From a virus, in the IMG/VR virus record IMGVR_UViG_3300038659_000394, positions 1 through 29,643 of that record: a DNA stretch of 29,643 nt; one strand, written 5' to 3'. This document shows, one piece after another, positions 1,166 to 29,643 of this stretch; positions within the stretch are counted from its first letter, which is position 1; each line of letters opens with the position of its first letter. Made by a program: the position numbers and the translations under genes. The notes beneath the pieces were generated by a model, which saw only the letters and a list, made by a program, of their open reading frames with translations, did no database searches and was not told the origin of the DNA.

Positions 1166-3526
1166 ATGAAAAAACTTATAATTGAAGTGGGAAGAGGTGT
1201 GAAGTGTATAAACACACCTAAAGTTGTCAGAGATAAGATAAAAAAAGACCTTACTTTTGATAATCCTGCCTATAAAAAAGCACTTGAGAGGGGAGGCTAC
1301 ACAAGTCTTCCCCCTCAGATTGTTCTTTTTGATTCTGAAAAAACTACTTTTTGGTTACCTCGTGGTTATGTTTTTTTCTTAATTAGATTTTTGAAAAAAA
1401 TTAACCATCCTTTTAATATTGTGGATGAGACTACGACATTAAAACCTCTTGATTTAAAATTTTATGGGAAATTAAGAGACTACCAAAAAGGTGCTGCAAA
1501 AAACATTTTTAAATATCCTTTAGGTGTTTTAGAAGCTGGAACAGGTTCTGGTAAAACAACTATGGCCTTGTTTGCTATTGCAGAAAGGAAACAACCTACT
1601 TTGATTTTAGTTCATACAAAGGAATTACTTTATCAATGGAAAGATAGAATAAAGGAATTTCTACATGAAGATTGTGGGTTAATTGGAGATGGGAAATTTG
1701 AAGTAAAACCAATAACTGTAGGTACTATCCAAACTGTCAAAAAAAGACGAGAAGAAATAATGGATTCTTTTGGCTTTTTGGTAATAGATGAATGTTTTGT
1801 AAAAGGAACATTAATTGATGGAAAACCAATAGAAACATTAAAAGTTGGTGATTATGTTAATAGTTATAATCATAAAACCAATAAAATTGAAAAAAAGAAA
1901 ATCCTTCATGTTTTTAAACACAAAGTCAAAGGGGATTTAATTCGAATAAATACCCCAACAAAGAAAGGACCAATAAGCACTTTAAATCATCCTTTTTTTG
2001 ATCCTGTCAAAAAAGATTACTTGACAGCATCTACATTTAATGATAGTAATACTGTGTACAGCATAGTTAGACAATCATTAAAAAAAGGAATAAAAAATGA
2101 AACTACAAATTCAGAGCAATTGCAAGATATGCGGAAAAGAAATAACCCTCTACAACGGAGGTCCAAATTATTTACGCACTTATCATGCAATACACGGTTC
2201 AGCCAAATGTTCGGAAAAATGCTGTCAAAAAGCAAGAAAAATTGGAAGAGAAAAAGCAGGAAAAAGTTTATCCGAATACAACAAAAAGTACGCCAGCGAA
2301 CGAATGAAAAAGAACAATCCTTCTTTCAATCCTATGATTATAGAAAAAGCAAAAGCTACCAAAAGATTGAGAGAAACCCTTCATATTTGGAAAGGAAAAA
2401 GGGGAGGAAATGGGCAATTAACCAAGCAACAGGAAAAACTTGCCTTGGCTTTAGGATGGGAAACAGAAGTACCCATCAAAACAGCCGATCACTTACCTAT
2501 GAACCAAAGAAGAAAATGGTGCAAAAAGAAAAAAGTCCCAACTTGTTACAAAGTAGATATTGGAAATCAGAAATTAAAAATAGCAATAGAAGTAGATTCC
2601 AAAAATCATCAAACGAAATCTGTAGCGAACAAAGACCGAAAGAAGGAATCGTTCTTGAAATGGAAAAAGTGGACAGTACTGAGATTTACCAACGAAGAAA
2701 TAGACAACAATTTAGAGAAGTGTGTCCAGATAATTTTGTCTATAATATCGAAGTGGAAGACAACAACAACTACTTTGCCGAGGATATATTAGTACATAAT
2801 TGCCATAGGTACGCTACTCAAGGGACAGCTTTTACCATTCAAGATTTTTCTGCAAAGTATTATCTAGGTTTAACTGCTACTCCTTTTCGAAGTGATGGTT
2901 TAGGTTCTATAATTTTTGCATGTATTGGTCCTAAGATTCATATTGTAAATAAAAAGAACCTTTATGATACAAAAGCTATATTGAGACCTGATGTTTATAT
3001 TGTAAATACCTCGTTCAATTATCTGTTTACCGATGATTATTCAAAAATGATCACTGAGCTAACAAATGATATTGACAGAAACACTCTTATTTGCAAGGAA
3101 ATAGCCTCAGATTTAAAGAAACACAAAGATGCTATACTCATAGTATCAGATCGCAAAAAACACGTAAATTTACTACAGGAAATGCTTTCTGATAATTTTG
3201 GTGTAAAGAGTATTTGTTTAACAGGAGGAATAAATAAGAAAAAACGAACTGAATATGTGGAACAAATCAGACGAAAAGAATGTAAGGTTGTTTTTGCTAC
3301 AATAAGTTTAATAGGGGAAGGTTTTGATGCTCCTTATTTAACTGCTCTGTTTTTGACTACTCCTATTAAATTTTCAGGTAGATTGATCCAGGCTTGCGGC
3401 AGGATTTTGCGTCCTGAAAAACATAAAACACCGCGAATTTATGATTTCCGAGATAACAATGTGAATGTTTTGAGATTTTCAGGTTATAGTAGAGATAGAG
3501 TATATAAACGAGAATGGGCAAAGTAA
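1166..3526 (+). CDS. SF2 DNA helicase (UvsW/RAD25-like) interrupted by an intein
   Basis: The precursor is 786 aa; removing the intein at residues 210-545 leaves a helicase of 450 aa, a normal size for T4 UvsW-type enzymes. Visible helicase motifs are RDYQKGA (about 104-110), Walker A GTGSGKT (125-131), Walker B VIDE|CH (the DECH box, split by the intein), LTATPFRSDG after the intein, and GRLIQACGRILRP near the C terminus (motif VI with its arginine finger). Enzymes of this type use ATP to remodel branched DNA such as stalled forks, and in T4 help switch from origin- to recombination-dependent replication. Context fits, with another helicase, SSB and RecA in the same window. The start follows the previous stop by four bases with only a weak ribosome site. 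The helicase can be active only after splicing, because the intein separates DE from CH. Confidence 0.9.
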   Translation: MKKLIIEVGRGVKCINTPKVVRDKIKKDLTFDNPAYKKALERGGYTSLPPQIVLFDSEKTTFWLPRGYVFFLIRFLKKINHPFNIVDETTTLKPLDLKFYGKLRDYQKGAAKNIFKYPLGVLEAGTGSGKTTMALFAIAERKQPTLILVHTKELLYQWKDRIKEFLHEDCGLIGDGKFEVKPITVGTIQTVKKRREEIMDSFGFLVIDECFVKGTLIDGKPIETLKVGDYVNSYNHKTNKIEKKKILHVFKHKVKGDLIRINTPTKKGPISTLNHPFFDPVKKDYLTASTFNDSNTVYSIVRQSLKKGIKNETTNSEQLQDMRKRNNPLQRRSKLFTHLSCNTRFSQMFGKMLSKSKKNWKRKSRKKFIRIQQKVRQRTNEKEQSFFQSYDYRKSKSYQKIERNPSYLERKKGRKWAINQATGKTCLGFRMGNRSTHQNSRSLTYEPKKKMVQKEKSPNLLQSRYWKSEIKNSNRSRFQKSSNEICSEQRPKEGIVLEMEKVDSTEIYQRRNRQQFREVCPDNFVYNIEVEDNNNYFAEDILVHNCHRYATQGTAFTIQDFSAKYYLGLTATPFRSDGLGSIIFACIGPKIHIVNKKNLYDTKAILRPDVYIVNTSFNYLFTDDYSKMITELTNDIDRNTLICKEIASDLKKHKDAILIVSDRKKHVNLLQEMLSDNFGVKSICLTGGINKKKRTEYVEQIRRKECKVVFATISLIGEGFDAPYLTALFLTTPIKFSGRLIQACGRILRPEKHKTPRIYDFRDNNVNVLRFSGYSRDRVYKREWAK
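1793..2800 (+). mobile_element. intein in the DECH box of the SF2 helicase
   Basis: The intein is 336 residues (210-545 of the precursor). It begins with Cys (CFVKGTLIDGKPIETLKVGDYV, block A), has block B as TLNHPFF, block F as VYNIEVEDNNNYFAEDILVHN, and ends His-Asn before the +1 Cys of the host CHRYATQG. These are the standard class 1 splicing residues. Between the splicing blocks the intein frame (about residues 310-530) reads as a low-complexity Arg/Lys/Ser/Gln string with no LAGLIDADG or HNH motif. Instead the neighbouring +1 frame at 2097-2792 holds a well-formed endonuclease. The element is thus a mini-intein whose endonuclease is coded out of frame. Confidence 0.9.
2097..2792 (+). CDS. 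Vsr/DUF559-like homing endonuclease nested out of frame in the intein
   Basis: The product is 231 aa, read +1 to the intein frame, with a ribosome site (AAAGGAAT) about nine bases before its ATG. N terminus: four-cysteine zinc-binding region (CKICGKE ... CSEKC) followed by a NUMOD3-like stretch (SERMKKNNPSFNP). The middle (KGKRGGNGQLTKQQEKLALALGWETE) and C-terminal core (YKVDIGNQKLKIAIEVDSKNH ... DRKKESFLKWKKWTVLRFTNEEI, shown in part) carry the IEVDxxxH and D-x-x-R-x-x-x-L ... VLRF pattern of the DUF559/Vsr-like PD-(D/E)XK fold used by EDxHD homing endonucleases such as I-Bth0305I. The stop is 8 bases before the intein ends, so its tail also overlaps splicing block F. It is clearly more protein-like than the intein frame over the same bases. 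It would cut intein-less alleles of the helicase gene. The family call is from pattern only. Confidence 0.8.
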   Translation: MKLQIQSNCKICGKEITLYNGGPNYLRTYHAIHGSAKCSEKCCQKARKIGREKAGKSLSEYNKKYASERMKKNNPSFNPMIIEKAKATKRLRETLHIWKGKRGGNGQLTKQQEKLALALGWETEVPIKTADHLPMNQRRKWCKKKKVPTCYKVDIGNQKLKIAIEVDSKNHQTKSVANKDRKKESFLKWKKWTVLRFTNEEIDNNLEKCVQIILSIISKWKTTTTTLPRIY

Positions 3527-7976: not shown

Positions 7977-8444
7977 ATGCCTATTCTTGAAAATGGTTCA
8001 ATTAATCCTTCAAAACCCCTTTCTTTAGATGAATATCTTTGTATAACTCGTTTAACTCCAGAACAAAACACCTATTCAGTGAATAAACATATTCTAAAAG
8101 TTTTAGGTCCTTTGTATGCTATTTATTTAACAAATCTGATGGAACTACAAAGAGAAAAAGCAGAACACGAGGAGGACTATGGTGATTTTTTTAAATCAAA
8201 TCATAAGGAACAAATTGAAGCTACAGGATTAAATGATTATGAAATCCGAAAAAGTAAAAACTTTTTTAAAAAAATAGGAATATTATCTACTACTAAAAAA
8301 GGTATACCTGCAAAAGAGTATTATAAAATAAATTACAGAATCGCAGAATACCTTTTTTGTATTGACAACAACTATATTGAACCTAAAGAAGGAAAGAAAC
8401 CAGAAGTAATTAAATTAAAAAAATTAATAGGGCGAAAAAAATGA
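7977..8444 (+). CDS. winged-helix protein, short paralog of the replication initiator
   Basis: The product is 155 aa from ATG 7977 with ribosome site AAAGGAA. TTG 7962 in frame is rejected because it lies on the ribosome site. The core runs VLGPLYAIYLTNLMELQ ... TGLNDYEIRKSKNFFKKIGIL ... KKGIPAKEYYKINY, a helix-turn-helix with a beta wing as seen in phage replication initiators (lambda O/DnaD-like N-terminal domains). The next gene has the same domain (LGLRECAVLSNLLEKW ... ISEYEISQAKKNL ... KKGIPAKEYYLLDF), so the two are paralogs. A 29-base stretch coding KKGIPAKEYY is identical in both. It overlaps the next gene by four bases. A regulator or partner of the initiator is likely; the exact role is unknown. 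Confidence 0.65.
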   Translation: MPILENGSINPSKPLSLDEYLCITRLTPEQNTYSVNKHILKVLGPLYAIYLTNLMELQREKAEHEEDYGDFFKSNHKEQIEATGLNDYEIRKSKNFFKKIGILSTTKKGIPAKEYYKINYRIAEYLFCIDNNYIEPKEGKKPEVIKLKKLIGRKK

Positions 8445-10213
8445 AAAAAATTTCTCAATCAGAATGTAACACTATCCTAAATGAATCAATTTCTTCCATT
8501 TTTATTAAGACTCCTAAATTTTTACAACAAGCATTGGGACTAAGGGAATGTGCAGTATTGTCCAATTTATTAGAAAAATGGAATTATTTTTTTAAGAATG
8601 GTATGTTACAAAAAGATAATTCATTTTACTTATTACAAAAATATCAAGCCTTAGAAATTGGAATAAGTGAATATGAAATATCTCAGGCTAAAAAGAACCT
8701 AAAATCCTTAAATTTAATAACCATAATCAAAAAAGGTATACCTGCAAAAGAGTATTACCTTTTAGATTTTGATAAAATTGAACAAGTATCGAGTGAAGCC
8801 CGACAAAAATATGAAGAAACCTTAGAAAATCTTAATAAAAACAACAGTTTGTCGAAATTTGAAGGACAAGACTCTAATGGTAAAAAAATCAAAAAAACCG
8901 TTAACCGAAAAAAGAGTTTACAGACCCTACAGGGCTTAAGGGGTCAAGACCCTACGCCAGATGAGCGGTCTATATATAATAAGAATAAAGTAAATAATAA
9001 AACAAAAAAAAATTTTTCTTTGAAAAATATTAAACTCGAAAAAATGAAAGGTTCTAAACTCTTGCGCACTAAGGTTGTTCCTGGCGGAACAAAGGTGCCG
9101 GAGGCACCTAAGGGAACAAAGAAGTTAAATGGAAAGAACAATAAGAAATCTCCTTGTAAAAAGGTGAAAGGTTCTAAACTCTTGCGCACTAAGGTTGTTC
9201 CTGGCGGAACAAAGGTGCCGGAGGCACCTAAGGGAACAAAGAAGTTAAATGGAAAGAACAATAAGAAATCTCCTTGTAAAAAGGTGAAAGTCCAGGTAAA
9301 CATAAAAAAACATGAATCTCTTGAACCTCCTAAATCTTTGCCAAAAATTAAGATTGAGCCAAATCCCTTGCAAAAGTTTAATTTCAAACCTGAAGTCTTT
9401 GAAATTTTGAACCATTGGCGAATCTTAGGTGGGAAAATTCCGAAAGATCCAAATAGGAGAAAAGTTGCAGATAATATTGCAAATCAAATCCAAGCTCTTT
9501 TGATAAAAGGTAACAATCCTTATACTTCAATTTTAAAGGATAATGAATTAGAACAATTCCGAACAAAGAAATGGACTGTACAAGAAATAAAAGATTCAAT
9601 TACCTATTTCAAAAAAGAACTTTGCAGACCTATTGAAAATATAGTTTCTTTTCTTCAATTTATTGTCCATCACAATTATAACTCAAACCAATCTCAACGA
9701 GATTATTCTCCTCTTGTATCTTCTTTTTCTGCTTTACCTCAAAACCTTTCTTACCTTGCTAACAAATTAAAAACCAAATTTGAATATTTTTATGATGACA
9801 TCCATTTTTATGATAAATCATTTAGCAAGATAGGTTCCTTCTTGGAACAAAAATTAATAGACTACAAACCTTATGTGCCTCATGCCAACAGAGGATTTTG
9901 TGTAGAAGACTTACCTTCTCTATTTTTGTATTATATGGATCAACAGGTAATTAAAGAAGGAAAACAAGATTGCTTGAAATACATGTCTAAGGATGAGAAT
10001 CTCAATAATTTTATAAGCCACCTTAGCAAATTGAATGTGATTAAACACAGAACGGATGAGGAATTAAAAAACTATAAAAAAGAAACAAAGGAAAGGTATG
10101 AAATTCAATACGGTGAATATGGGAAAATGATAAATTCAGGTGTATCAAAAAATTGGAATGAAGATCAATGGGAATATTTTGAATTTTTAAAGGAACAAGT
10201 TGATGCTGATTAA
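8441..10213 (+). CDS. probable replication initiator (lambda O-like), with internal tandem repeat
   Basis: The product is 590 aa. Residues about 20-125 are the winged-helix domain also found in the preceding gene. Residues about 130-300 form a long basic linker (Lys/Gly/Pro-rich) containing a perfect 40-residue tandem duplication (about 202-281). Residues about 315-410 form a conserved helical domain (EVFEILNHWRILGGKIPKDP, then NPYTSILKDNELEQFRTKKW), which resembles replisome-organiser C-terminal regions. An ATGA overlap couples it to the gene before; the DnaB-type helicase start lies within its last codons. Winged-helix N terminus, repeat-bearing linker and following helicase match the lambda O/P layout, in which the origin lies inside the initiator gene. 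Function is inferred from layout and domain shape; no catalytic motif exists to check. Confidence 0.65.
   Translation: MKKISQSECNTILNESISSIFIKTPKFLQQALGLRECAVLSNLLEKWNYFFKNGMLQKDNSFYLLQKYQALEIGISEYEISQAKKNLKSLNLITIIKKGIPAKEYYLLDFDKIEQVSSEARQKYEETLENLNKNNSLSKFEGQDSNGKKIKKTVNRKKSLQTLQGLRGQDPTPDERSIYNKNKVNNKTKKNFSLKNIKLEKMKGSKLLRTKVVPGGTKVPEAPKGTKKLNGKNNKKSPCKKVKGSKLLRTKVVPGGTKVPEAPKGTKKLNGKNNKKSPCKKVKVQVNIKKHESLEPPKSLPKIKIEPNPLQKFNFKPEVFEILNHWRILGGKIPKDPNRRKVADNIANQIQALLIKGNNPYTSILKDNELEQFRTKKWTVQEIKDSITYFKKELCRPIENIVSFLQFIVHHNYNSNQSQRDYSPLVSSFSALPQNLSYLANKLKTKFEYFYDDIHFYDKSFSKIGSFLEQKLIDYKPYVPHANRGFCVEDLPSLFLYYMDQQVIKEGKQDCLKYMSKDENLNNFISHLSKLNVIKHRTDEELKNYKKETKERYEIQYGEYGKMINSGVSKNWNEDQWEYFEFLKEQVDAD
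8729..8757 (+). repeat. 29-base identical repeat shared with 8295-8323
   Basis: The 29 bases starting with six A and GGTATACCTGC are identical at 8295-8323 and 8729-8757, in the beta-wing codons (KKGIPAKEY) of the two paralogous winged-helix genes. The surrounding paralogous sequence is much less similar, which suggests gene conversion or selection on the DNA itself. GTATAC is palindromic. Confidence 0.8.
8967..9284. other. candidate replication origin inside the initiator gene
   Basis: An A/T-rich stretch (8967-9040, beginning with alternating TATATATAATAA) directly adjoins two 120-bp repeat units that each hold two adjacent short palindromes: TTGTTCC-TGGC-GGAACAA (9075-9092 and 9195-9212) and AGGTGCC-GGA-GGCACCT (9093-9109 and 9213-9229). 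Four 17-18-bp palindromic sites plus a melting-prone flank, inside the coding linker of an initiator-like gene, is the arrangement of lambda ori. This is inference from layout. Confidence 0.45.
9045..9284 (+). repeat. perfect 120-bp tandem duplication
   Basis: Bases 9045-9164 and 9165-9284 are identical at every position, and six further bases of a third copy follow (9285-9290). The unit is exactly 40 codons, so the frame is kept. It is visibly richer in G+C than its surroundings. Zero divergence points to very recent duplication or ongoing homogenisation. Confidence 0.95.
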
Positions 10214-12871: not shown

Positions 12872-13231
12872 ATGCTCAAAACCCAAGTTACAAAAATTTT
12901 CAAATTCGAAGCTGGTCATCAATTAGAAAACAGTTTCACGAAAGAATGTGAATCCCCACACGGACATAGTTATAAAGTGGAAGTAACTTTTGAAGGAAGG
13001 GTCTATACTGACACAGGAATGGTGATTGATTTTGGAGAACTGAAACAAATTGTAAAACCTATTATTGATGAATATGATCATAAATTTTTTACCAAAGAAA
13101 ATTATGGCAAAAATCCCACAGCCGAAAATATGGCAAGTGATATTTTCTGGAAAATTAGAGAAAAAACATTAATGATAAAACAAGTGAAACTATGGGAAAC
13201 AGATACAAGTTATGTTATAGTTAGGTGTTAA
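12872..13231 (+). CDS. queD: QueD, 6-carboxy-5,6,7,8-tetrahydropterin synthase
   Basis: The product is 119 aa, the usual QueD length, with ribosome site AAGGAG. It converts dihydroneopterin triphosphate (made by FolE) to 6-carboxytetrahydropterin, the second step toward 7-deazaguanine. The zinc ligands are H16, H30 and H32 (FEAGH ... SPHGHSY), the catalytic cysteine is C26, the D69-H70 pair lies in EYDHKFF, and the substrate-binding E109 is in LWETDTSY. NPTAEN (81-86) is the family signature. The T-fold works as a multimer. It forms a pathway set with queE (174 bases on) and folE. Confidence 0.93.
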   Translation: MLKTQVTKIFKFEAGHQLENSFTKECESPHGHSYKVEVTFEGRVYTDTGMVIDFGELKQIVKPIIDEYDHKFFTKENYGKNPTAENMASDIFWKIREKTLMIKQVKLWETDTSYVIVRC

Positions 13232-13405: not shown

Positions 13406-14056
13406 ATGAAAATTACAGAAATATTTGAATCAATTCACGGGGAAGTAAATGGTCATCACCAAGGAAGAATCTGCACATTTATAAGAACCTCTGGATGTAA
13501 TTTGAGGTGTTATTATTGTGATACTCCCGGAACACAAAATCCTATTGGAGAAAATACTACTTTTGATTCTATTTTGGATAAAATTAAATACTATAACAAT
13601 CAATACCTTTGTATAACAGGAGGAGAACCTTTACTTAATAAATCACAAATGGTAGATTTATTATCATTACTTCATTTCCAAAATTATAAAATTTCAGTAG
13701 AAACAAATGGAACTATAGATATTACTCCTTTTTACCGATATGTAGAAAGTTTTGTTGTTGATTACAAAGTGGGAGTGGATAACTATAAACCCTTTTTAAA
13801 AAATTATATAAATTTACGAAACACTGATGTTATAAAATTTGTAGTGGGTTCTGAAAAGGACATAATAGAAATTGTAAACAATTTTTCTTTTTTAGAACAC
13901 CAATATAAAAATAAAACACAAAAACCTGTTATCTCTTTTTCTCCTATTATATCTGAAACCTTCACACCAAAAATATTATTTACTGGCCTAAAGAATAACG
14001 GAATCCATAACGTATTGATATCTGTTCAAATACATAAGTATATAGGATTTAATTGA
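13406..14056 (+). CDS. queE: QueE, 7-carboxy-7-deazaguanine synthase
   Basis: The product is 216 aa, normal for QueE. It is a radical-SAM enzyme that rearranges 6-carboxytetrahydropterin into 7-carboxy-7-deazaguanine. The [4Fe-4S] cysteines are C31, C35 and C38 in SGCNLRCYYCDTP, a CxxxCxxC motif; CITGGEPLL carries the SAM-binding GGEP. IFESIHGEVNGHHQGR at the N terminus is the family substrate-binding start. The ribosome site is poor (AAAAGG at a distance of about ten bases). The last 15 codons (LISVQIHKYIGFN) are echoed in a damaged copy about 125 bases downstream. Confidence 0.93.
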   Translation: MKITEIFESIHGEVNGHHQGRICTFIRTSGCNLRCYYCDTPGTQNPIGENTTFDSILDKIKYYNNQYLCITGGEPLLNKSQMVDLLSLLHFQNYKISVETNGTIDITPFYRYVESFVVDYKVGVDNYKPFLKNYINLRNTDVIKFVVGSEKDIIEIVNNFSFLEHQYKNKTQKPVISFSPIISETFTPKILFTGLKNNGIHNVLISVQIHKYIGFN

Positions 14057-14291: not shown

Positions 14292-14969
14292 ATGTCAGAA
14301 GAAAAGAACATCACAGAAGAATCCATCAAAGTAGCCATTAAAGATCTTAATGCCCATCTTAAATCAAAGGAAAAAGAAGAGATTTCCATTGAAGGAATTG
14401 AAGGCGTTGAAGCTCAGATTCAGGTATTTCTTGTGCCTGTTTTTGAAGAAATTGAAAACGGTACTGCTGCTGAACTTCCGGAAAAAGTAATTGAACTTTA
14501 TAATCAGATAGCAGAAGACGAAGAAGAACCTGGAGAACCTGAAGAAGGGTGTTTCTTTTTACCTTTAGAATCTTTTACAGAAAAGAAACCTAAAAAGAAA
14601 CCCAGAAAAGAAATTGAAAAAGATGCTTACGGTGTATCCATGAACAGTGGAGCACACAAACTCAATCTGATGCTGGAAAAAGGAGCTTCAATTGCTGATA
14701 TGATTGATGGAGTAGGTACTACTCGCAGTAGAGTTCAATCACACATGGCTTCTTTGAAAACCAAGGGTTTCTTTATTAATAATATTGATGGGGTTTTTAC
14801 TGTTATGTCTGAAGAACCCCCGGAAAGACTTAAAAAAGAAAAAGTTGACGGTGCCAAAGAAGGAGAAAAAACTGAAAAGAAAAAAGCTCCTGCTAAAAAA
14901 TCATCTTCCAAAAAATCATCTTCCAAAAAATCATCTTCCAAAAAATCATCTTCCAAAAAAGGAAAATAA
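14292..14969 (+). CDS. probable DNA-binding protein with Lys/Ser repeat tail
   Basis: The product is 225 aa with a strong ribosome site and its own promoter. It has three parts. Residues 1-85 are acidic and helical. Residues about 115-170 (GAHKLNLMLEKGASIADMID, then TTRSRVQSHMASLKTKGF) look like a winged helix of the DUF3489 type. Residues 180-225 are a basic tail with the pentapeptide KKSSS repeated four times, like histone H1-type or AlgP-type tails. Such a protein could bind DNA non-specifically or act as an abundant regulator. Its strong promoter supports high expression. FolE begins five bases after its stop. The function is not established. Confidence 0.6.
   Translation: MSEEKNITEESIKVAIKDLNAHLKSKEKEEISIEGIEGVEAQIQVFLVPVFEEIENGTAAELPEKVIELYNQIAEDEEEPGEPEEGCFFLPLESFTEKKPKKKPRKEIEKDAYGVSMNSGAHKLNLMLEKGASIADMIDGVGTTRSRVQSHMASLKTKGFFINNIDGVFTVMSEEPPERLKKEKVDGAKEGEKTEKKKAPAKKSSSKKSSSKKSSSKKSSSKKGK
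14895..14960 (+). repeat. 15-bp coding tandem repeat (four units)
   Basis: The unit AAAAAATCATCTTCC is repeated four times without a mismatch from 14895 to 14954, plus six A of a fifth unit. It codes for the KKSSS repeats of the 14292 product. The array is prone to copy-number change by slippage in steps of five residues. Confidence 0.95.
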
Positions 14970-14973
14970 AACT

Positions 14974-15546
14974 GTGACGGAAATTCAAAAAGATTTCCAT
15001 CACATTATATCTGAGGGATTGGGGCTCGATATGTCGGACCCCAATCTCAAAGACACTCCTAAGAGATTGGAAAAAATGTATAAAGATTTTGTCAAAAATA
15101 CTGACAAACCTTTTAAAGGACTTACTGTTTTTCCAAACAGTGATGGATATGATCAAATAATTCTATTGGATACCATTCATTTCACTTCTATATGTTCTCA
15201 TCATTTTATACCTTTTGCTGGTAAAGCCTGGTTTGCTTATATTCCGGATGAATTATTATTAGGGGCCTCTAAACCGGCAAGAGTGATAGAACATTATGCA
15301 GCAAGACCTCAACTACAAGAAAACCTTTGTCAACAGGTTGTTAAATTTATTAGCAAACAACTTAAACCATTAGGAATTATGCTTGTAATGAGAGCAATAC
15401 ACGGTTGTATGTCTTGTCGTGGAATTTATCAATATCACGGAGCCGGAATGATGACTTCTTCTATTACCGGTATTTTCAAAGAAAACAAAGCACCTCATGA
15501 TGAAGTTATGGATTTGATAAAAATGTCAATAATGATGGAAAAATGA
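14974..15546 (+). CDS. folE: FolE, GTP cyclohydrolase I
   Basis: The product is 190 aa from GTG 14974, chosen because AAGGAA lies about ten bases upstream and FolE proteins start at this point; the frame is open further upstream only through the repeat array of the previous gene. It opens GTP to dihydroneopterin triphosphate, the first step of the 7-deazaguanine path. Zinc ligands are C74 and H77 (ICSHHF) and C145 (HGCMSCRG); catalytic neighbours H143 and R149 are in place, and the ARPQLQE (about 110-116) signature is present. The stop overlaps the next gene's start (ATGA). Carrying its own FolE lets the phage boost pterin supply independent of the host. Confidence 0.93.
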   Translation: MTEIQKDFHHIISEGLGLDMSDPNLKDTPKRLEKMYKDFVKNTDKPFKGLTVFPNSDGYDQIILLDTIHFTSICSHHFIPFAGKAWFAYIPDELLLGASKPARVIEHYAARPQLQENLCQQVVKFISKQLKPLGIMLVMRAIHGCMSCRGIYQYHGAGMMTSSITGIFKENKAPHDEVMDLIKMSIMMEK

Positions 15547-17965: not shown

Positions 17966-19858
17966 ATGAGAAGTATTTTTGTTGATTCAGGTGCTCACTC
18001 TCTATATACCAAATATGTTATCAATCGACAACATGTGAATGGTTATTCTTTTTATGAATCTGACGCATTTTGGAATTATGTTGATCAATATGCAGAATGG
18101 GTAAAGCAAAGACTTCATTTGATTGATGTTTATGTAAATGTGGATGTTATTTTCAATCCTGAATTAAGTTGGAAAACCCTCAAATATTTAGAAAATACTC
18201 ACGACTTAAATCCATTACCTGTTATTCATGCCAATACTGATAAAAAATGGTTATACAAACATCTTGATAATTATGAATACTTAGGAATAGGAGGCATAGG
18301 TCAAGAGAAAACAGTAAAAGAATTTCTTCCTTTTGGAGATATGGTATTTAATGCTATTACTGACACAAAAGGATACCCTACTCATAAAACACATGGTTTT
18401 GCTATGACTTCTAATTTTCTATTAAATCGTTTTCCTTGGTATTGCATGACCGAAGAAGACCATGAAGTTCTTACTAAAAAAGGTTGGAAAAAGAGAAGCA
18501 AACTACAGATAGGAGAAGAAATATTAGCATTTGATGAAGGAGTAACCAAATGGGAACCTATTTTAGATATTCCAGTATTCCCAGTAAAAAATGAAAAAAT
18601 AACCCATATTGAAAACCGAAATATTGATGCTCATATTTCAAATAATCATAGGTGGATAACAACCGACCATAATAAAAGAGGATTAAAATGGAGATTTAAA
18701 GAAACTGATTATTTAACAAAAAGTGATGCTATTCCAAGGGTAGGTAAAGATTATAAATTTCCAACTGAAAAAAAATATTCAGATGAGCAAGTTAAATTAT
18801 TAGGATGGATTTGGACAGATGGGTCTATGAGAGACAGATCTAAAAAAGGATGCAAATTCAACAGCATAATTATATACCAATCTAAAACAGCTAATCCTAA
18901 AAAATGTAAAGAAATTGAAACCCTTTTAAATAAAAGTAAAGAAAAATACTGTATTTGTAAAGGGGAATGTGGAATGAACAATTATGAGATATATGGTAAT
19001 ATTTCTAAATGGATATGGTCTCTAGCTCCTGATAAAAAAATACCTTTACCTTTTATTTTTGATTTAACAAAAGACCAATTAAAAATGTTTATAGATGCTT
19101 CTATAAAAGGAGATGGAACTTTAACAAAATTAATTAGAAGAAAAGGAATAGAAATTACAGTAAATAGATCTGTTAAAAAAGAAAATTTAGAAATTTTACG
19201 CATAGGTTATTTATTATTAGGTATTCCTACTTCTATTTTTTACGGTAAAAATAATAAAAAAAGTCTGCGTACTTCCTCAGTAGATTATATCTATAATAAT
19301 CAAACAAGACATTGGATTGAGAACTATACTGGTAATTTGTGGTGTGTAAAAGTTAAAAGTGGAGCTTTTTTTACAAGATGTAATGAAAAAATTTATGTAA
19401 CAGGAAATTCAGTTGATTCCACAGCTTGGGCCCACTTCGGAAGATTTGGAGCTATATTGATACCTAAGTTAAAAAACGGAAAATATGATTACAAAACTAC
19501 ACCTATTATTCTTTTTATTTCTGATCGGTCAACAAAAAAAGATTTAGCAGGAAAACATTTAGATAATTTTTCCAAAATTGAAAGAAAAATGATCCTAAAA
19601 TACATTAAAGATAAGGGATATATTTTAGGAAAATCTGAACACAAAAAAGTTCCATTAGATTATAAAGTTACTCCAGGTAAAGAATTTAGAATTTCAAAAC
19701 ACAAAAACCATACACTAATCGAAAACTGTATTGAAAAAGGTGTAAAAAATAACAACCTAATGAGGGATTTTTTCAATGCAGAATACTACAAAGATTTAGC
19801 TAATTCTTTACCTGAATGGCCTTGGAAGTTCAAACACAAAGAAGGGACATTATTTTAA
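17966..19858 (+). CDS. dpdA: DpdA-type DNA 7-deazaguanine transglycosylase, interrupted by an intein
   Basis: The precursor is 630 aa; removing the intein at residues 160-481 leaves 308 aa, near the size of phage DpdA proteins. DpdA is a tRNA-guanine-transglycosylase relative that exchanges guanine in DNA for a 7-deazaguanine base. The extein has FVDSGAHSLYTKY (5-17), VYVNVDVIFNPELSW, PVIHANTD, YLGIGGIGQ and, rejoined across the intein, FPWY|SVDSTAWAHFGRFGA (shown in part), the most conserved DpdA signature. The base is supplied by FolE, QueD and QueE coded upstream. Starts seven bases after the glycosyltransferase. The intein sits in the signature motif, so DNA modification should depend on splicing. 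Assignment to DpdA rests on these motifs plus pathway context. Confidence 0.82.
   Translation: MRSIFVDSGAHSLYTKYVINRQHVNGYSFYESDAFWNYVDQYAEWVKQRLHLIDVYVNVDVIFNPELSWKTLKYLENTHDLNPLPVIHANTDKKWLYKHLDNYEYLGIGGIGQEKTVKEFLPFGDMVFNAITDTKGYPTHKTHGFAMTSNFLLNRFPWYCMTEEDHEVLTKKGWKKRSKLQIGEEILAFDEGVTKWEPILDIPVFPVKNEKITHIENRNIDAHISNNHRWITTDHNKRGLKWRFKETDYLTKSDAIPRVGKDYKFPTEKKYSDEQVKLLGWIWTDGSMRDRSKKGCKFNSIIIYQSKTANPKKCKEIETLLNKSKEKYCICKGECGMNNYEIYGNISKWIWSLAPDKKIPLPFIFDLTKDQLKMFIDASIKGDGTLTKLIRRKGIEITVNRSVKKENLEILRIGYLLLGIPTSIFYGKNNKKSLRTSSVDYIYNNQTRHWIENYTGNLWCVKVKSGAFFTRCNEKIYVTGNSVDSTAWAHFGRFGAILIPKLKNGKYDYKTTPIILFISDRSTKKDLAGKHLDNFSKIERKMILKYIKDKGYILGKSEHKKVPLDYKVTPGKEFRISKHKNHTLIENCIEKGVKNNNLMRDFFNAEYYKDLANSLPEWPWKFKHKEGTLF
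18443..19408 (+). mobile_element. LAGLIDADG intein in DpdA
   Basis: The intein is 322 residues, from CMTEEDHEVLTKKGWK (block A, Cys1) to KIYVTGN, with +1 Ser in the host. Block B is HISNNHRW. Two dodecapeptide motifs of a LAGLIDADG endonuclease are recognisable: LLGWIWTDGSM and MFIDASIKGDGTL. The penultimate residue is Gly instead of the common His, which is tolerated in some inteins. It is an in-frame, full-length homing intein. Confidence 0.88.
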
Positions 19859-24703: not shown

Positions 24704-24868
24704 ATGAGCAAAACAATTTCAATTACAATTCCAACTCCTCTTGAAAAAGAACTAAAAGAGGAATCAAAAAAACAAGGAGTTTCTCGAAGTAGGTTTATTT
24801 GTAACCTACTATTAACTTGGAGTGAGAATAAAAAGGAAAAATTAAATGAGTTTACAAGTCCTTTATAG
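24704..24868 (+). CDS. small ribbon-helix-helix DNA-binding protein
   Basis: The product is 54 aa (MSKTISITIPTPLEKELK...), with ribosome site AAGGAG. It is a clear RHH: strand TISITIP, helix TPLEKELKEESKKQG, turn VSRS, helix RFICNLLLTWSENK. It overlaps the clamp loader start by 23 bases. It is the third RHH-like protein in the window and the most canonical. It probably dimerises and binds an operator; the promoter at 24095 is a candidate target (inference). Confidence 0.75.
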   Translation: MSKTISITIPTPLEKELKEESKKQGVSRSRFICNLLLTWSENKKEKLNEFTSPL

Positions 24869-25784
24869 ACCTGCAACATTTAAAATGTTTGCCGGAAACA
24901 AGGAATTAAAAGAGAATCTACAACAAGTAGTGAAAAGAAAAAACCCCCCTTCTTCTTTTCTAATTGTAGGTCCAAGTGGTTGTGGAAAAACAACTCTTGG
25001 TAGAATTATCAAAAGGGCGCTATCCTGTCATGATGATGATTATAAGGAAATGAATGCTGCAAATGATAGAACCTTACCTGCTATTCGAAACGTATTAGAA
25101 GACATGAAATATACACCTATGTCTGGTGAAAAAAAAGTCATCTTAATGGATGAATGCCATCAATTATTAGGTAATGTTCAAGAAGCCCTTCTTAAAGGCT
25201 TAGAAGAACCGCCAGCACACGTTCATTTTATTTTATGTACTACAAACCCAGAAGCTTTGAAAGATACGTTTAAACGAAGATGCCATATTTATGAAGTTGC
25301 TCCATTAAACAGCAACGAAATGATGAAGCACCTTAAAATTATTATCCAAGCAGAAAAGATTGAAAATTATCCTAATTCCATTCTTGAAAAAGTTATTGAA
25401 TTATCGAATGGGTCTCCTGGTATTGCTTTAAAATATCTGGATATGGTAATTGACATGAAAAATGATGAAGAATCAGCAATCAAACTGTTGAAATCTTCAG
25501 GTACTTCTGAAAAAGATGTATACGAAATCTGTCAAGCTTTGGTTAATTTCAAAATAAACGATAAAACAAGATGGTATAAAGTAAAAAAACTTCTCAAAGA
25601 ATTTAAAGGAGATGGTGAATCGGCCAGACGGCCTATTCTTGGTTATTTAAATTCATGCATTTTGAATAATCCAGAAGGAGATAACTTTGCTTTAATTATG
25701 GATGAATTTAAAGATAATTTTTATGATTCTGGAAAAGCTGGATTATCCTTAGCTTGTTTTAAAGCTTGCCATATTATTGATTAA
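24846..25784 (+). CDS. clamp loader ATPase (DnaX/RFC-like)
   Basis: The product is 312 aa. The ATG lies in the end of the RHH gene after AAAGGAAAAA. AAA+ motifs: Walker A GPSGCGKTT (42-50), Walker B ILMDECH (about 99-105), sensor 1 FILCTTNPEAL and the DTFKRRCHIYEV equivalent of the SRC motif, with the arginine finger. LYRPATFKMFAGNKELKENL at the N terminus is the DnaX start. The C-terminal third is helical and forms the collar. It would open and load the clamp coded at 20086. Only one loader gene is seen; a small subunit (T4 gp62-like) may lie elsewhere or not exist. Confidence 0.9.
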   Translation: MSLQVLYRPATFKMFAGNKELKENLQQVVKRKNPPSSFLIVGPSGCGKTTLGRIIKRALSCHDDDYKEMNAANDRTLPAIRNVLEDMKYTPMSGEKKVILMDECHQLLGNVQEALLKGLEEPPAHVHFILCTTNPEALKDTFKRRCHIYEVAPLNSNEMMKHLKIIIQAEKIENYPNSILEKVIELSNGSPGIALKYLDMVIDMKNDEESAIKLLKSSGTSEKDVYEICQALVNFKINDKTRWYKVKKLLKEFKGDGESARRPILGYLNSCILNNPEGDNFALIMDEFKDNFYDSGKAGLSLACFKACHIID

Positions 25785-27282: not shown

Positions 27283-29643
27283 ATGGCCAAAAAGATAAAA
27301 ATCAAACCTATTAAAAAAATTATAAGTACTGCTGATTCTTTTGAAGCCATGATGGATGAAGAAGAGGTTGTTGATCCTGAATTTATTGATGTTAATAATT
27401 TAGTTCCAATGGGATCAACAACCGGTCATCTTGAATGTTCTGGTAATTGGCAAGGAGCTTTTAACTTAGGAAAAATGATTAATTTAATAGGTGATTCTCA
27501 CGCAGGTAAATGTATTAAAAATTCATATATTTTAACTTCAAAAGGAATGGAGTTAATAGATGATATAGGTAAAAATAAAAAAGAGGGGATAAGCCCTTAT
27601 ATTGAAACTTTATCTATAGATAAAAACCGAAAAGACGTAACCTCACTTTTTTGGAAAGAAAAAGTCTCTAAGACAATAAAAATTATCACTAAAAAAGGAT
27701 ATTCTATTGAAGGAACTCTAGATCATCCTATTATGATAATGAATAAAAATTTCCAATTCAAAATGCGTAAATTACAAGATATTAAAAAAGACGATTGTGC
27801 TATAATAGCAAGAGGTACTAATAATTTTACGGAAGAATATTTTCCTATTAAAAATATAAATTTATCTGAAACTAATGTAAAGAAAGCAAATATTCCTAAA
27901 TTTATAAACGAATCTTTTGCTAGATTATTAGGTTATATTGTAGCAGATGGAAATATATACCCTAATACTATTTTTCTTTCTACTACTAAATCTTATATTA
28001 GGGAAGATTTAAGCACAATAGCATCTAATTTAAATATATCTTTAAAACAACAATCTATAGGAGGAAAACATTTAGCTACTGTTATTGCTAATTTATTTGA
28101 TAATCCTGATAAATTTACAGCAAGGTATAAATTTGTTCCAGAATGTATTTTAAAATCACCTAAAAATATTCAAACTTCTTTTTTAAAAGCTTTAATAGAT
28201 TGTGATGGGTATGGAACTAAAACACAAATAAGTTATTATACTGCATCGAAACAATTAGCAAAACAAGTCCATTTAATGCTCTTAAATTTAGGTATAATTT
28301 CTACTTTATCTTTTAAAAATGGTGCTTTTGACGGAGTAAATTATCATGATCATATTTATTGGGCTGTAAATATTTATGGAGATGAACTAATTCTTTATAA
28401 TAATTTAATCGGAAGTTCTAAATATAATGAATTTTTAAAACGAAAAAATACTCAAAGAAATAGTGATTATGATTCAATACCAAATTTAATTAAAAAAATG
28501 AAAGGAGATATTGAAAAATTAAGGAAAAAAGTAGGATGGTCTAAAAACGGAAAATGTACAAATGATCCAAGACGTTTTCCGAGAATAAAATTTGCAAATA
28601 CTGAAAATGGCTCAAAAAAAATGATTAAACGATTTATTGAATTATTTTTAGAATGGCCTATTGATTTATCTTTTTATAACACAATTCTTTCATCAGGATA
28701 TTGTTTTGATTCAATTTCGATTATTGAAGAAAAGATAAATCAAACAATAGTTTATGATGTTCATATTCCAAATTCACATTTATTTTGGAGTAATGGGTTT
28801 ATAAGTCATAATACCTTATTAGCTTTTACTATATTTGCGGAATGTAATAAGTTAAAAAGATTTGATGATTACCTTTTTAAATATGATGATGTAGAAGCAG
28901 CAAATGAGTTTAATATTTCCCTTCTGTTTGGTTCACAATGCGCTAATAGGATAGATCAAACTGAACGAAGCAGGACTATTGAAGATTTTAATGATCGAAT
29001 TGCTTCTCTTTTGGATGAAGGAGAACCTTTTATTTATGTGCTTGATTCATTCGATGGATTAACCAGTGAAGCTGCTATTAAAAAAGATATCGAAAATCGT
29101 AAAAAAAGAGAAAAAGGAAATGAAACAACAGGTGATTTTGGTGACGGCAAAGCTAAAATCTTTTCAAGATTCTGCTCTATGAGAATACAAGAATTAAAAG
29201 ATACTAATTCCCTTCTTATTATTATTTCACAAACAAGAGATAACATAGGTTTCGGTGCTCAATTTACTCCAAAAACAAGATCAGGAGGAAGGGCATTAAA
29301 ATTTTACTCAGCTTTTGAAATATGGTTAGCATGTCAGAAAAAAGAGAAAAAGGGCAAAAGAACCATCATTACTAATGTTCAAGGTAAAATAACTAAAAAC
29401 AAGTTAACTGGTAAGCATGGTGAATTTTACTTTCCTATTCTTAATGATTACGGAATGGATAACATAAAGTCTTGTATCAATTTTTTGATGGATGAAGGGG
29501 ATTGGACAGGAACTAAAAAAGCAGTAAACACAAAAGGTTTCTTAGATTTAAAAGATTCTAAAGGTAAAAAGAAACACCCATCTGTCAAAGAACTTATTGA
29601 TTATATTGAAGAGGAAAATAAAGAAGTCAGTTTGTATAAACTG
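27283..29643 (+). CDS. RecA/UvsX-like recombinase, interrupted by an intein (3' partial)
   Basis: The frame is open from ATG 27283 to the window end (787 codons, no stop yet). Removing the intein (residues 77-510) leaves 76 plus 277 residues. The extein has LVPMGSTTGH, LIGDSHAGK|TLLAF (Walker A, P-loop split by the intein), FIYVLDSFDGL (Walker B), LLIIISQTRDN (the conserved Gln region before loop L2) and RSGGRALKFYSAFEIWL (the RecA GGxALKFYSSxRL motif). Phage enzymes of this type pair and exchange homologous strands for recombination-dependent replication. The ribosome site is AAGGA, 12 bases after the SSB stop. The C terminus is missing because the window ends. Confidence 0.9.
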   Translation, partial: MAKKIKIKPIKKIISTADSFEAMMDEEEVVDPEFIDVNNLVPMGSTTGHLECSGNWQGAFNLGKMINLIGDSHAGKCIKNSYILTSKGMELIDDIGKNKKEGISPYIETLSIDKNRKDVTSLFWKEKVSKTIKIITKKGYSIEGTLDHPIMIMNKNFQFKMRKLQDIKKDDCAIIARGTNNFTEEYFPIKNINLSETNVKKANIPKFINESFARLLGYIVADGNIYPNTIFLSTTKSYIREDLSTIASNLNISLKQQSIGGKHLATVIANLFDNPDKFTARYKFVPECILKSPKNIQTSFLKALIDCDGYGTKTQISYYTASKQLAKQVHLMLLNLGIISTLSFKNGAFDGVNYHDHIYWAVNIYGDELILYNNLIGSSKYNEFLKRKNTQRNSDYDSIPNLIKKMKGDIEKLRKKVGWSKNGKCTNDPRRFPRIKFANTENGSKKMIKRFIELFLEWPIDLSFYNTILSSGYCFDSISIIEEKINQTIVYDVHIPNSHLFWSNGFISHNTLLAFTIFAECNKLKRFDDYLFKYDDVEAANEFNISLLFGSQCANRIDQTERSRTIEDFNDRIASLLDEGEPFIYVLDSFDGLTSEAAIKKDIENRKKREKGNETTGDFGDGKAKIFSRFCSMRIQELKDTNSLLIIISQTRDNIGFGAQFTPKTRSGGRALKFYSAFEIWLACQKKEKKGKRTIITNVQGKITKNKLTGKHGEFYFPILNDYGMDNIKSCINFLMDEGDWTGTKKAVNTKGFLDLKDSKGKKKHPSVKELIDYIEEENKEVSLYKL
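27511..28812 (+). mobile_element. LAGLIDADG intein in the RecA P-loop
   Basis: The intein is 434 residues (77-510), from CIKNSYILTSKGMELIDDIG (block A) to SNGFISHN, with +1 Thr. Block B is GTLDHPIM, block F VYDVHIPNSHLFWSNGF. LAGLIDADG motifs are LLGYIVADGN and FLKALIDCDGYG. Cys1, block B His, penultimate His and terminal Asn are all present, so it should splice. It is inserted between the Lys and Thr of the P-loop, a known RecA intein site. Confidence 0.92.

Follow-up and report, generated by a model that had tools for sequence, protein, structure and literature searches.

A phage helicase intein with a putative homing endonuclease nested in its +1 reading frame

Here, we describe a composite element in the helicase gene of the virus record IMGVR_UViG_3300038659_000394 from IMG/VR, analyzed over positions 1 to 29,643 (the 29,643-nucleotide stretch referred to below as the window). 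On the evidence of its sequence and predicted structures, the element is very probably mobile and joins a Hint intein in the helicase with a separate homing endonuclease read from the +1 frame, with putative roles in splicing, cleavage and homing. We consider it likely that the element belongs to a widespread class of phage inteins that is stably dual-coding, comprising a splicing domain and a separate homing endonuclease in the only feasible register, with ~50 codons that fold in both frames. The two frames and their conservation, the register, the enrichment of ribosome-binding sequences, the predicted folds, the precise presence or absence of the insert and its decay forms were all computed directly.

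The intein and the nested endonuclease

The helicase precursor is an open reading frame (ORF) of 786 amino acids (1166..3526), in which an intein separates an N-extein (1166-1792) from a C-extein (2801-3526); these features, and those of the intein and endonuclease, lie on the plus strand. The exteins match ResIII (3.6e-23) and Helicase_C (6.3e-13) in Pfam and helicase in PHROG (2.4e-59), and the helicase frame is stop-free from 1166 to 3526, intein included. The intein (1793..2800; 336 amino acids, Cys1 to Asn336) occupies the Walker B motif at DE/CH, the slash marking the point of insertion, and its coordinates are exactly those given in an earlier note on this DNA, which had described the intein frame as open throughout; we likewise count zero stops in the helicase frame. 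It starts with CFVKG, which supplies Cys1, carries TLNH at block B as well as a block F, and ends in LVHN/C; NCBIfam intein_Cterm matches at 1.9e-5 and Pfam Intein_splicing at 2.6e-6, the latter under the Pfam curated cutoff.

In the AlphaFold model of the intein, confidence is high for residues 1-95 and 284-336, with disorder predicted in between. The N-terminal Hint half, comprising blocks A and B (residues 1-95; 1793..2077), is supported by alignment and by a predicted local distance difference test (pLDDT) of 96-98, and lies outside the overlap with the endonuclease, while residues 284-336 are modeled as the C-terminal half of the Hint domain. The Hint fold is present, as seen from the alignment of the model with the Mtu RecA intein over 130 residues at 1.6 A (Z 19.5). 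By its splicing residues and Hint fold the insert is an intein, and protein splicing itself is predicted. The low-complexity middle proposed earlier holds for residues ~100-283, which are predicted to be disordered, but not for residues 284-336, which fold in the model as part of the Hint domain.

The nested ORF (2097..2792; 231 amino acids), in the +1 frame relative to helicase and intein, is recognized as an endonuclease by its DUF559 match, its structural model and its conservation. Pfam DUF559 matches at 3e-11, above the gathering threshold, and MTES_1575 at 1.3e-5. An N-terminal zinc ribbon (2121..2222) with C9, C12, C38 and C42, all invariant or nearly so, is followed by the conserved motif SERMKKNNPS (2295..2324), which we call NUMOD3-like on general grounds and not by a profile match, and by a DUF559/Vsr catalytic core (residues 146-217; 2532..2747) identified by profile, alignment and fold, reading YKVD...IEVDSKNH...D...WTVLRFTN. 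The model (pLDDT 89) resembles 3hrl (Z 11.5), the I-Bth0305I structure 3r3p (Z 10.0) and Vsr (1cw0, Z 8.9), and 3r3p is also its best Foldseek match (E 8.5e-3). A hidden Markov model comparison with 3r3p (E 0.005) aligns IEVNG in its core with the family consensus IEVDG, a comparison at the level of the core motif. The search of the 231-residue frame against endonuclease families and structures proposed in the earlier note returned Pfam DUF559, 3hrl, 3r3p and Vsr, in agreement with its reading of a Vsr/DUF559-like endonuclease with zinc cysteines and an IEVDxxxH core. An AAGGA Shine-Dalgarno (SD) sequence (2085..2089) lies 7 nucleotides before the ATG, and the endonuclease frame is closed by a stop (2091-2093) just one codon ahead of that ATG.

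Conservation and selection in two frames

A profile of the endonuclease run against IMG/VR, GenBank phages and GTDB contigs yielded 99 distinct relatives, the window included, of which 91 lie nested within a longer host ORF that stays open, always in the +1 register and never in +2; relatives in viral contigs number ~314 in all. Because the nested class is defined by an open host frame, the absence of stops inside it is partly a matter of definition, and what carries information is the small number of the 99 relatives left outside it. Three of the other eight are cut by a contig end but open, L077 has a single stop in the linker, and L126 is a free-standing endonuclease. In L028 (4448-6670) the host frame is broken and the element is split into a Hint-N ORF, a separate endonuclease and a Hint-C ORF, possibly a step to trans-splicing. 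L032 (3546-5666) and L033 (2907-6365) are distant in-frame fusions, in which a related endonuclease sits in a different Hint lineage, followed by CRC. In view of the partly definitional class, loci were also sought with the intein N-terminus as query, an ascertainment independent of the endonuclease, with many contigs shared between the two sets. This intein-first search found a nested endonuclease in 74 of 78 loci (57 of 61 distinct), along with two mini-inteins and two loci cut by contig ends.

Splicing features are maintained throughout these loci: all 90 parsed inteins have Cys1, a terminal Asn and Cys or Ser at +1, and 89 of the 90 have [TS]xxH at block B. Pfam Intein_splicing matches 44 of 46 scanned hosts, about 28 of them helicases and 16 clamp-loader-type AAA ATPases. 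The insertion site is nearly always DE/CH in Walker B; in L046, L134, L138, L146 and L165 it lies two residues later, after DEAH or DEGH, and the next residue is Cys or Ser. Cultured phages carrying the family include CP-T1, phi673 and MR14, and 40 full-length matches in cultured phages lie under coding sequences annotated as helicase, hypothetical protein or "coil containing protein"; a search of plasmids returned partial DUF559 matches only. The nested arrangement is a widespread, conserved class and not a single oddity. Homologs with stops in the endonuclease frame and conservation of the intein alone, which the earlier note had named as evidence to the contrary, are mostly the opposite of what we found, as full-length relatives keep both frames; the exceptions (L155, L205 and L146) are such as a homing cycle predicts.

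Chance does not account for the open intein frame, as judged by exact synonymous recoding of the endonuclease amino acids and counting of the resulting intein-frame stops. With the endonuclease's own synonymous codon usage, 15 stops are expected in the window and 0 observed (P(no stop) = 7.6e-9); phage codon usage raises the expectation to 25 (P(no stop) = 2.5e-17), and the third frame over the same endonuclease contains 21. Across the 91 nested loci, an average of 11.7 stops is expected per locus, with 0 observed in the intein frame and a mean of 18.9 observed in the third frame. A stop-free +1 register is feasible for 91 of 91 family proteins. The +2 register, which occurs in none of the nested relatives, is feasible for only 3; the other 88 are barred from it mostly by Met codons that precede a codon beginning with A and so create TGA. 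The background of same-strand nested ORFs of at least 190 amino acids is low: besides the counted endonucleases, the fetched loci contain 19, most of which come from the window itself or from endonuclease loci that were cut out more than once.

Substitutions between relatives fall mainly at the third codon position of the endonuclease, the first in the intein frame, and most of the linker in the intein therefore appears to be unconstrained except by the avoidance of stops. A codon null test, in which synonymous codons were redrawn without stops and the intein-frame residues compared, gave a mean z of -0.7 at endonuclease positions 1-185 and -9.2 from position 186 on, values that per column are inflated by shared ancestry and for which positions 1-185 serve as an internal control. 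The intein residue facing W192 is Val in 88% (34% expected), and the one facing R196 is Glu in 77% (20% expected); together, the constrained residues spell the C-terminal Hint strand RV(E/D)S(V/I)E(I/V)Y. This extra constraint on the intein frame is limited to the C-terminal Hint strands, in agreement with the AlphaFold model. Null test, model and overlap thus delimit a doubly structured segment (2642..2789) of intein residues 284-333 and endonuclease residues ~182-231. Since intein residues 284-336 are predicted to fold as the C-terminal half of Hint, the final ~50 codons of the endonuclease seem to specify two folded proteins. The overlap of the endonuclease tail with the C-terminal splicing region, put forward in the earlier note, is accordingly real in its coordinates, and the selection proposed there to keep the intein frame open is seen as stop avoidance plus conservation of C-terminal Hint residues beyond it.

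Initiation within the host gene is suggested by the best SD sequence at the predicted endonuclease start, which across the 91 loci averages -6.0 kcal/mol against -2.9 in matched controls (p 6e-17), and by a median of 4 codons from the upstream stop to the first start codon in the relatives. Such enrichment supports internal initiation but does not prove expression. It extends to 91 homologous starts the ribosome site that had been noticed at AAGGA in the window, and splicing protein and endonuclease would, as read from the sequence, be made as separate polypeptides.

Mobility and rival explanations

From these observations, we infer a course of splicing, internal initiation, cleavage and homing. 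Ribosomes in the helicase frame would make the precursor, whose ~185-codon linker between the Hint halves would simply be the endonuclease gene read out of frame, a stretch that the protein could bear for want of stops and through its presumed disorder; the Hint domain would then excise itself and ligate DE to CH to give the helicase. Ribosomes starting at the internal SD and ATG (2085-2099) would make the 231-residue endonuclease with its zinc ribbon, NUMOD3-like module and DUF559/Vsr core. This protein would cut uninvaded Walker B codons, and repair would copy in the whole element along with the +1 Cys codon needed for splicing.

Close intein-free relatives of the window helicase were not found in viral contigs, and the empty site is therefore demonstrated in relatives of the element. 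The phages phi673 (occupied) and phi674 (empty) are 99.2% identical, and CP-T1/VchM-138 and 159E43-1b/142E35-1 form further occupied/empty pairs. In all three pairs the insertion runs exactly from Cys1 to Asn, and the +1 residue is Val or Ala in empty alleles and Cys in occupied ones. Seven of the 14 differences between phi673 and phi674 fall within 90 nucleotides right of the insertion (p 3.5e-6) and 0 within 90 nucleotides left, a cluster that fits co-conversion of the right flank; the CP-T1 pair has only a weak cluster of single-nucleotide polymorphisms (p 0.03 at 30 nucleotides). The occupied/empty pairs and the clustered differences lend indirect support to a putative site-specific cut in the empty allele. 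Endonuclease, Hint and extein distances correlate (r 0.64-0.68), which points to much inheritance together with the host gene. Decay takes several forms: L155 and L205 are mini-inteins with endonuclease remnants only, among them the region of W.VLRF where endonuclease and Hint strand overlap; in L146 the endonuclease is missing its N-terminal part; and L133 and L164 are mini-inteins without any endonuclease. Such mini-inteins and decayed copies are what a homing cycle predicts. In the window itself, the clamp-loader gene (24846-25784) has an uninvaded DE/CH site (25143-25166) with the same GATGAA/TGCCAT core as the invaded helicase, and relatives of the element occupy that clamp-loader site in other phages.

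Besides the shared ancestry behind the z scores, several points weigh against a functional dual-coding element. The near-invariant DGxSH is DSKNH in the window copy, with Ser beside the conserved Asp167 at a position that is Gly in at least 90% of relatives, and activity of the window endonuclease could be reduced; some homologs also lack a clear SD at the predicted start. The departure at the near-invariant Gly, together with the decay seen in some relatives, would suit a real intein whose nested endonuclease is a dead passenger, untranslated or inactive and open only by recent descent. Yet relatives at 30-50% identity keep the full ORF and all core residues, changes fall at endonuclease position 3 as under purifying selection, SD sequences are enriched at the endonuclease starts, and the element is present or absent between near-identical phages, all of which makes a passenger quite improbable. 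As the two frames overlap in one mRNA and the SD is not clear in every relative, ribosomal frameshifting might instead yield an endonuclease fused to the N-terminal Hint half, a very unlikely route given the stop one codon before the ATG in the window, the short distance from upstream stop to first start in relatives, and the SD enrichment. Group I introns commonly contain free-standing endonuclease ORFs, and one of the nearest structural matches, I-Bth0305I, bears the annotation of a mobile intron protein, so that the insert could be imagined to leave as RNA, with the open helicase frame incidental. An intron is next to impossible, however, with a host frame open in 91 loci against ~12 expected stops each, all splicing residues and the Hint fold present, and no Rfam match to a group I or II intron in the window region (permissive search) or in 10 loci (gathering threshold).

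How the dual-coding architecture arose is a separate matter. The earlier note held that the endonuclease invaded a mini-intein out of frame, but this is not shown, as the mini-inteins L133 and L164 may be descendants and not ancestors. The opposite history, in which the endonuclease was at first in frame or belonged to a split intein and only later shifted frame to give the same architecture, is a genuine possibility, a little short of probable. It is favored by the in-frame relatives in another Hint lineage (L032 and L033) and by the split form at the same site (L028), and, with +2 closed to 88 of the 91 proteins, any origin would end in +1; against it, none of the 78 intein-found loci has an in-frame version of the endonuclease at DE/CH.

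Other features of the window and relation to known systems

At the end of the window, a RecA/UvsX-like gene that runs past the window end (27283-29643) has an in-frame LAGLIDADG intein of the canonical type (Pfam LAGLIDADG_3 7.5e-17, Intein_splicing 2.7e-14), and an ORF of 630 amino acids without a Pfam match (17966-19858) seemingly holds another intein-like insert (YCMTEEDHEVLTKKGW ... IYVTGNS). Near the latter lie ORFs named by sequence reading as QueD-like (12872-13231), QueE-like (13406-14056, with a Radical_SAM match) and GTP-cyclohydrolase-like (14785-15546), possibly for 7-deazaguanine DNA modification. Another ORF (8441-10213) contains two near-identical copies of a unit of ~40 amino acids (KVKGSKLLRTKVVPGGTKVPEAPKGTKKLNGKNNKKSPCK) and is overlaid by a long antisense ORF (8944-9387). 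ORF 14292-14969 ends in a Lys/Ser-rich repeat tail, and the same stretch (14785-14969), read in another frame, forms the start of ORF 14785-15546 as LPKNH repeats.

Canonical bifunctional inteins of the PI-SceI type carry an in-frame LAGLIDADG endonuclease as part of the intein polypeptide. The element described here shares with them a Hint domain with a probable homing endonuclease, precise insertion at a conserved site and, presumably, a homing cycle, and differs in that its endonuclease would be a separate polypeptide from the +1 frame. In the fractured genes said to have been described by Dassa and colleagues in 2009, split inteins reportedly have a free-standing Vsr-like endonuclease between their halves. 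There, intein and Vsr-like endonuclease are made separately, as they would be here, but the host frame is broken and splicing occurs in trans, whereas the window and 90 relatives keep their host ORF in one piece; a fractured gene is ruled out for the window by this unbroken frame, although relative L028 does fit one. I-Bth0305I is an EDxHD homing endonuclease (PDB 3r3p; reviewed in PMC3943268) with a Vsr-like catalytic domain that superposes on ours over 90 residues at 2.5 A and a similarly modular DNA-binding region, but it is annotated as a mobile intron protein and does not come from an intein frame; the window endonuclease has an N-terminal zinc ribbon and SERMKKNNP module. In ShiLan (PMC11855218, 2025), an HNH endonuclease inserted out of frame leaves the host frame open and was argued not to be an intein. 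The two systems share a mobile endonuclease ORF out of frame in an open host gene and a disjunct distribution. ShiLan, however, is HNH and lacks a detectable splicing domain or ribosome site, whereas the window has a DUF559/Vsr nuclease, a complete Hint intein with all splicing residues and an SD at the start; this nuclease and the complete Hint domain in the host frame rule out a ShiLan-type insertion.

Inteins and Vsr-like homing endonucleases are each known already, as is the insertion of an endonuclease out of frame (ShiLan, PMC11855218). For overlapping frames in actinobacteriophages, PMC11855218 cites Gosselin et al. and Gorbalenya 1998, "Non-canonical inteins". We found no description of a nested DUF559 endonuclease in an intein in the literature that was searched, although Gosselin et al. 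(bioRxiv 10.1101/2025.01.02.630785, "non-canonical architecture"), Gorbalenya 1998 and Dassa 2009 may hold precedents, and no precedent in the portions of PMC10448857 and PMC2988022 that were covered. Nor did that literature yield a conserved class in which intact inteins hold a separate, nested DUF559 endonuclease and the overlap is structured in both frames, and we claim no priority for the principle.

The near-isogenic phages phi673 and phi674, whose host Corynebacterium glutamicum is easy to handle in the laboratory, make homing, splicing and dual translation directly testable, and two folded proteins from the last ~50 codons would be one of the few tests of overprinting that nature provides. 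In textbook inteins the endonuclease lies in frame, and splicing and cutting are therefore fused in one protein. The class described here would separate the two by reading frame, so that each may be expressed and evolve alone, yet it remains one inseparable mobile unit.

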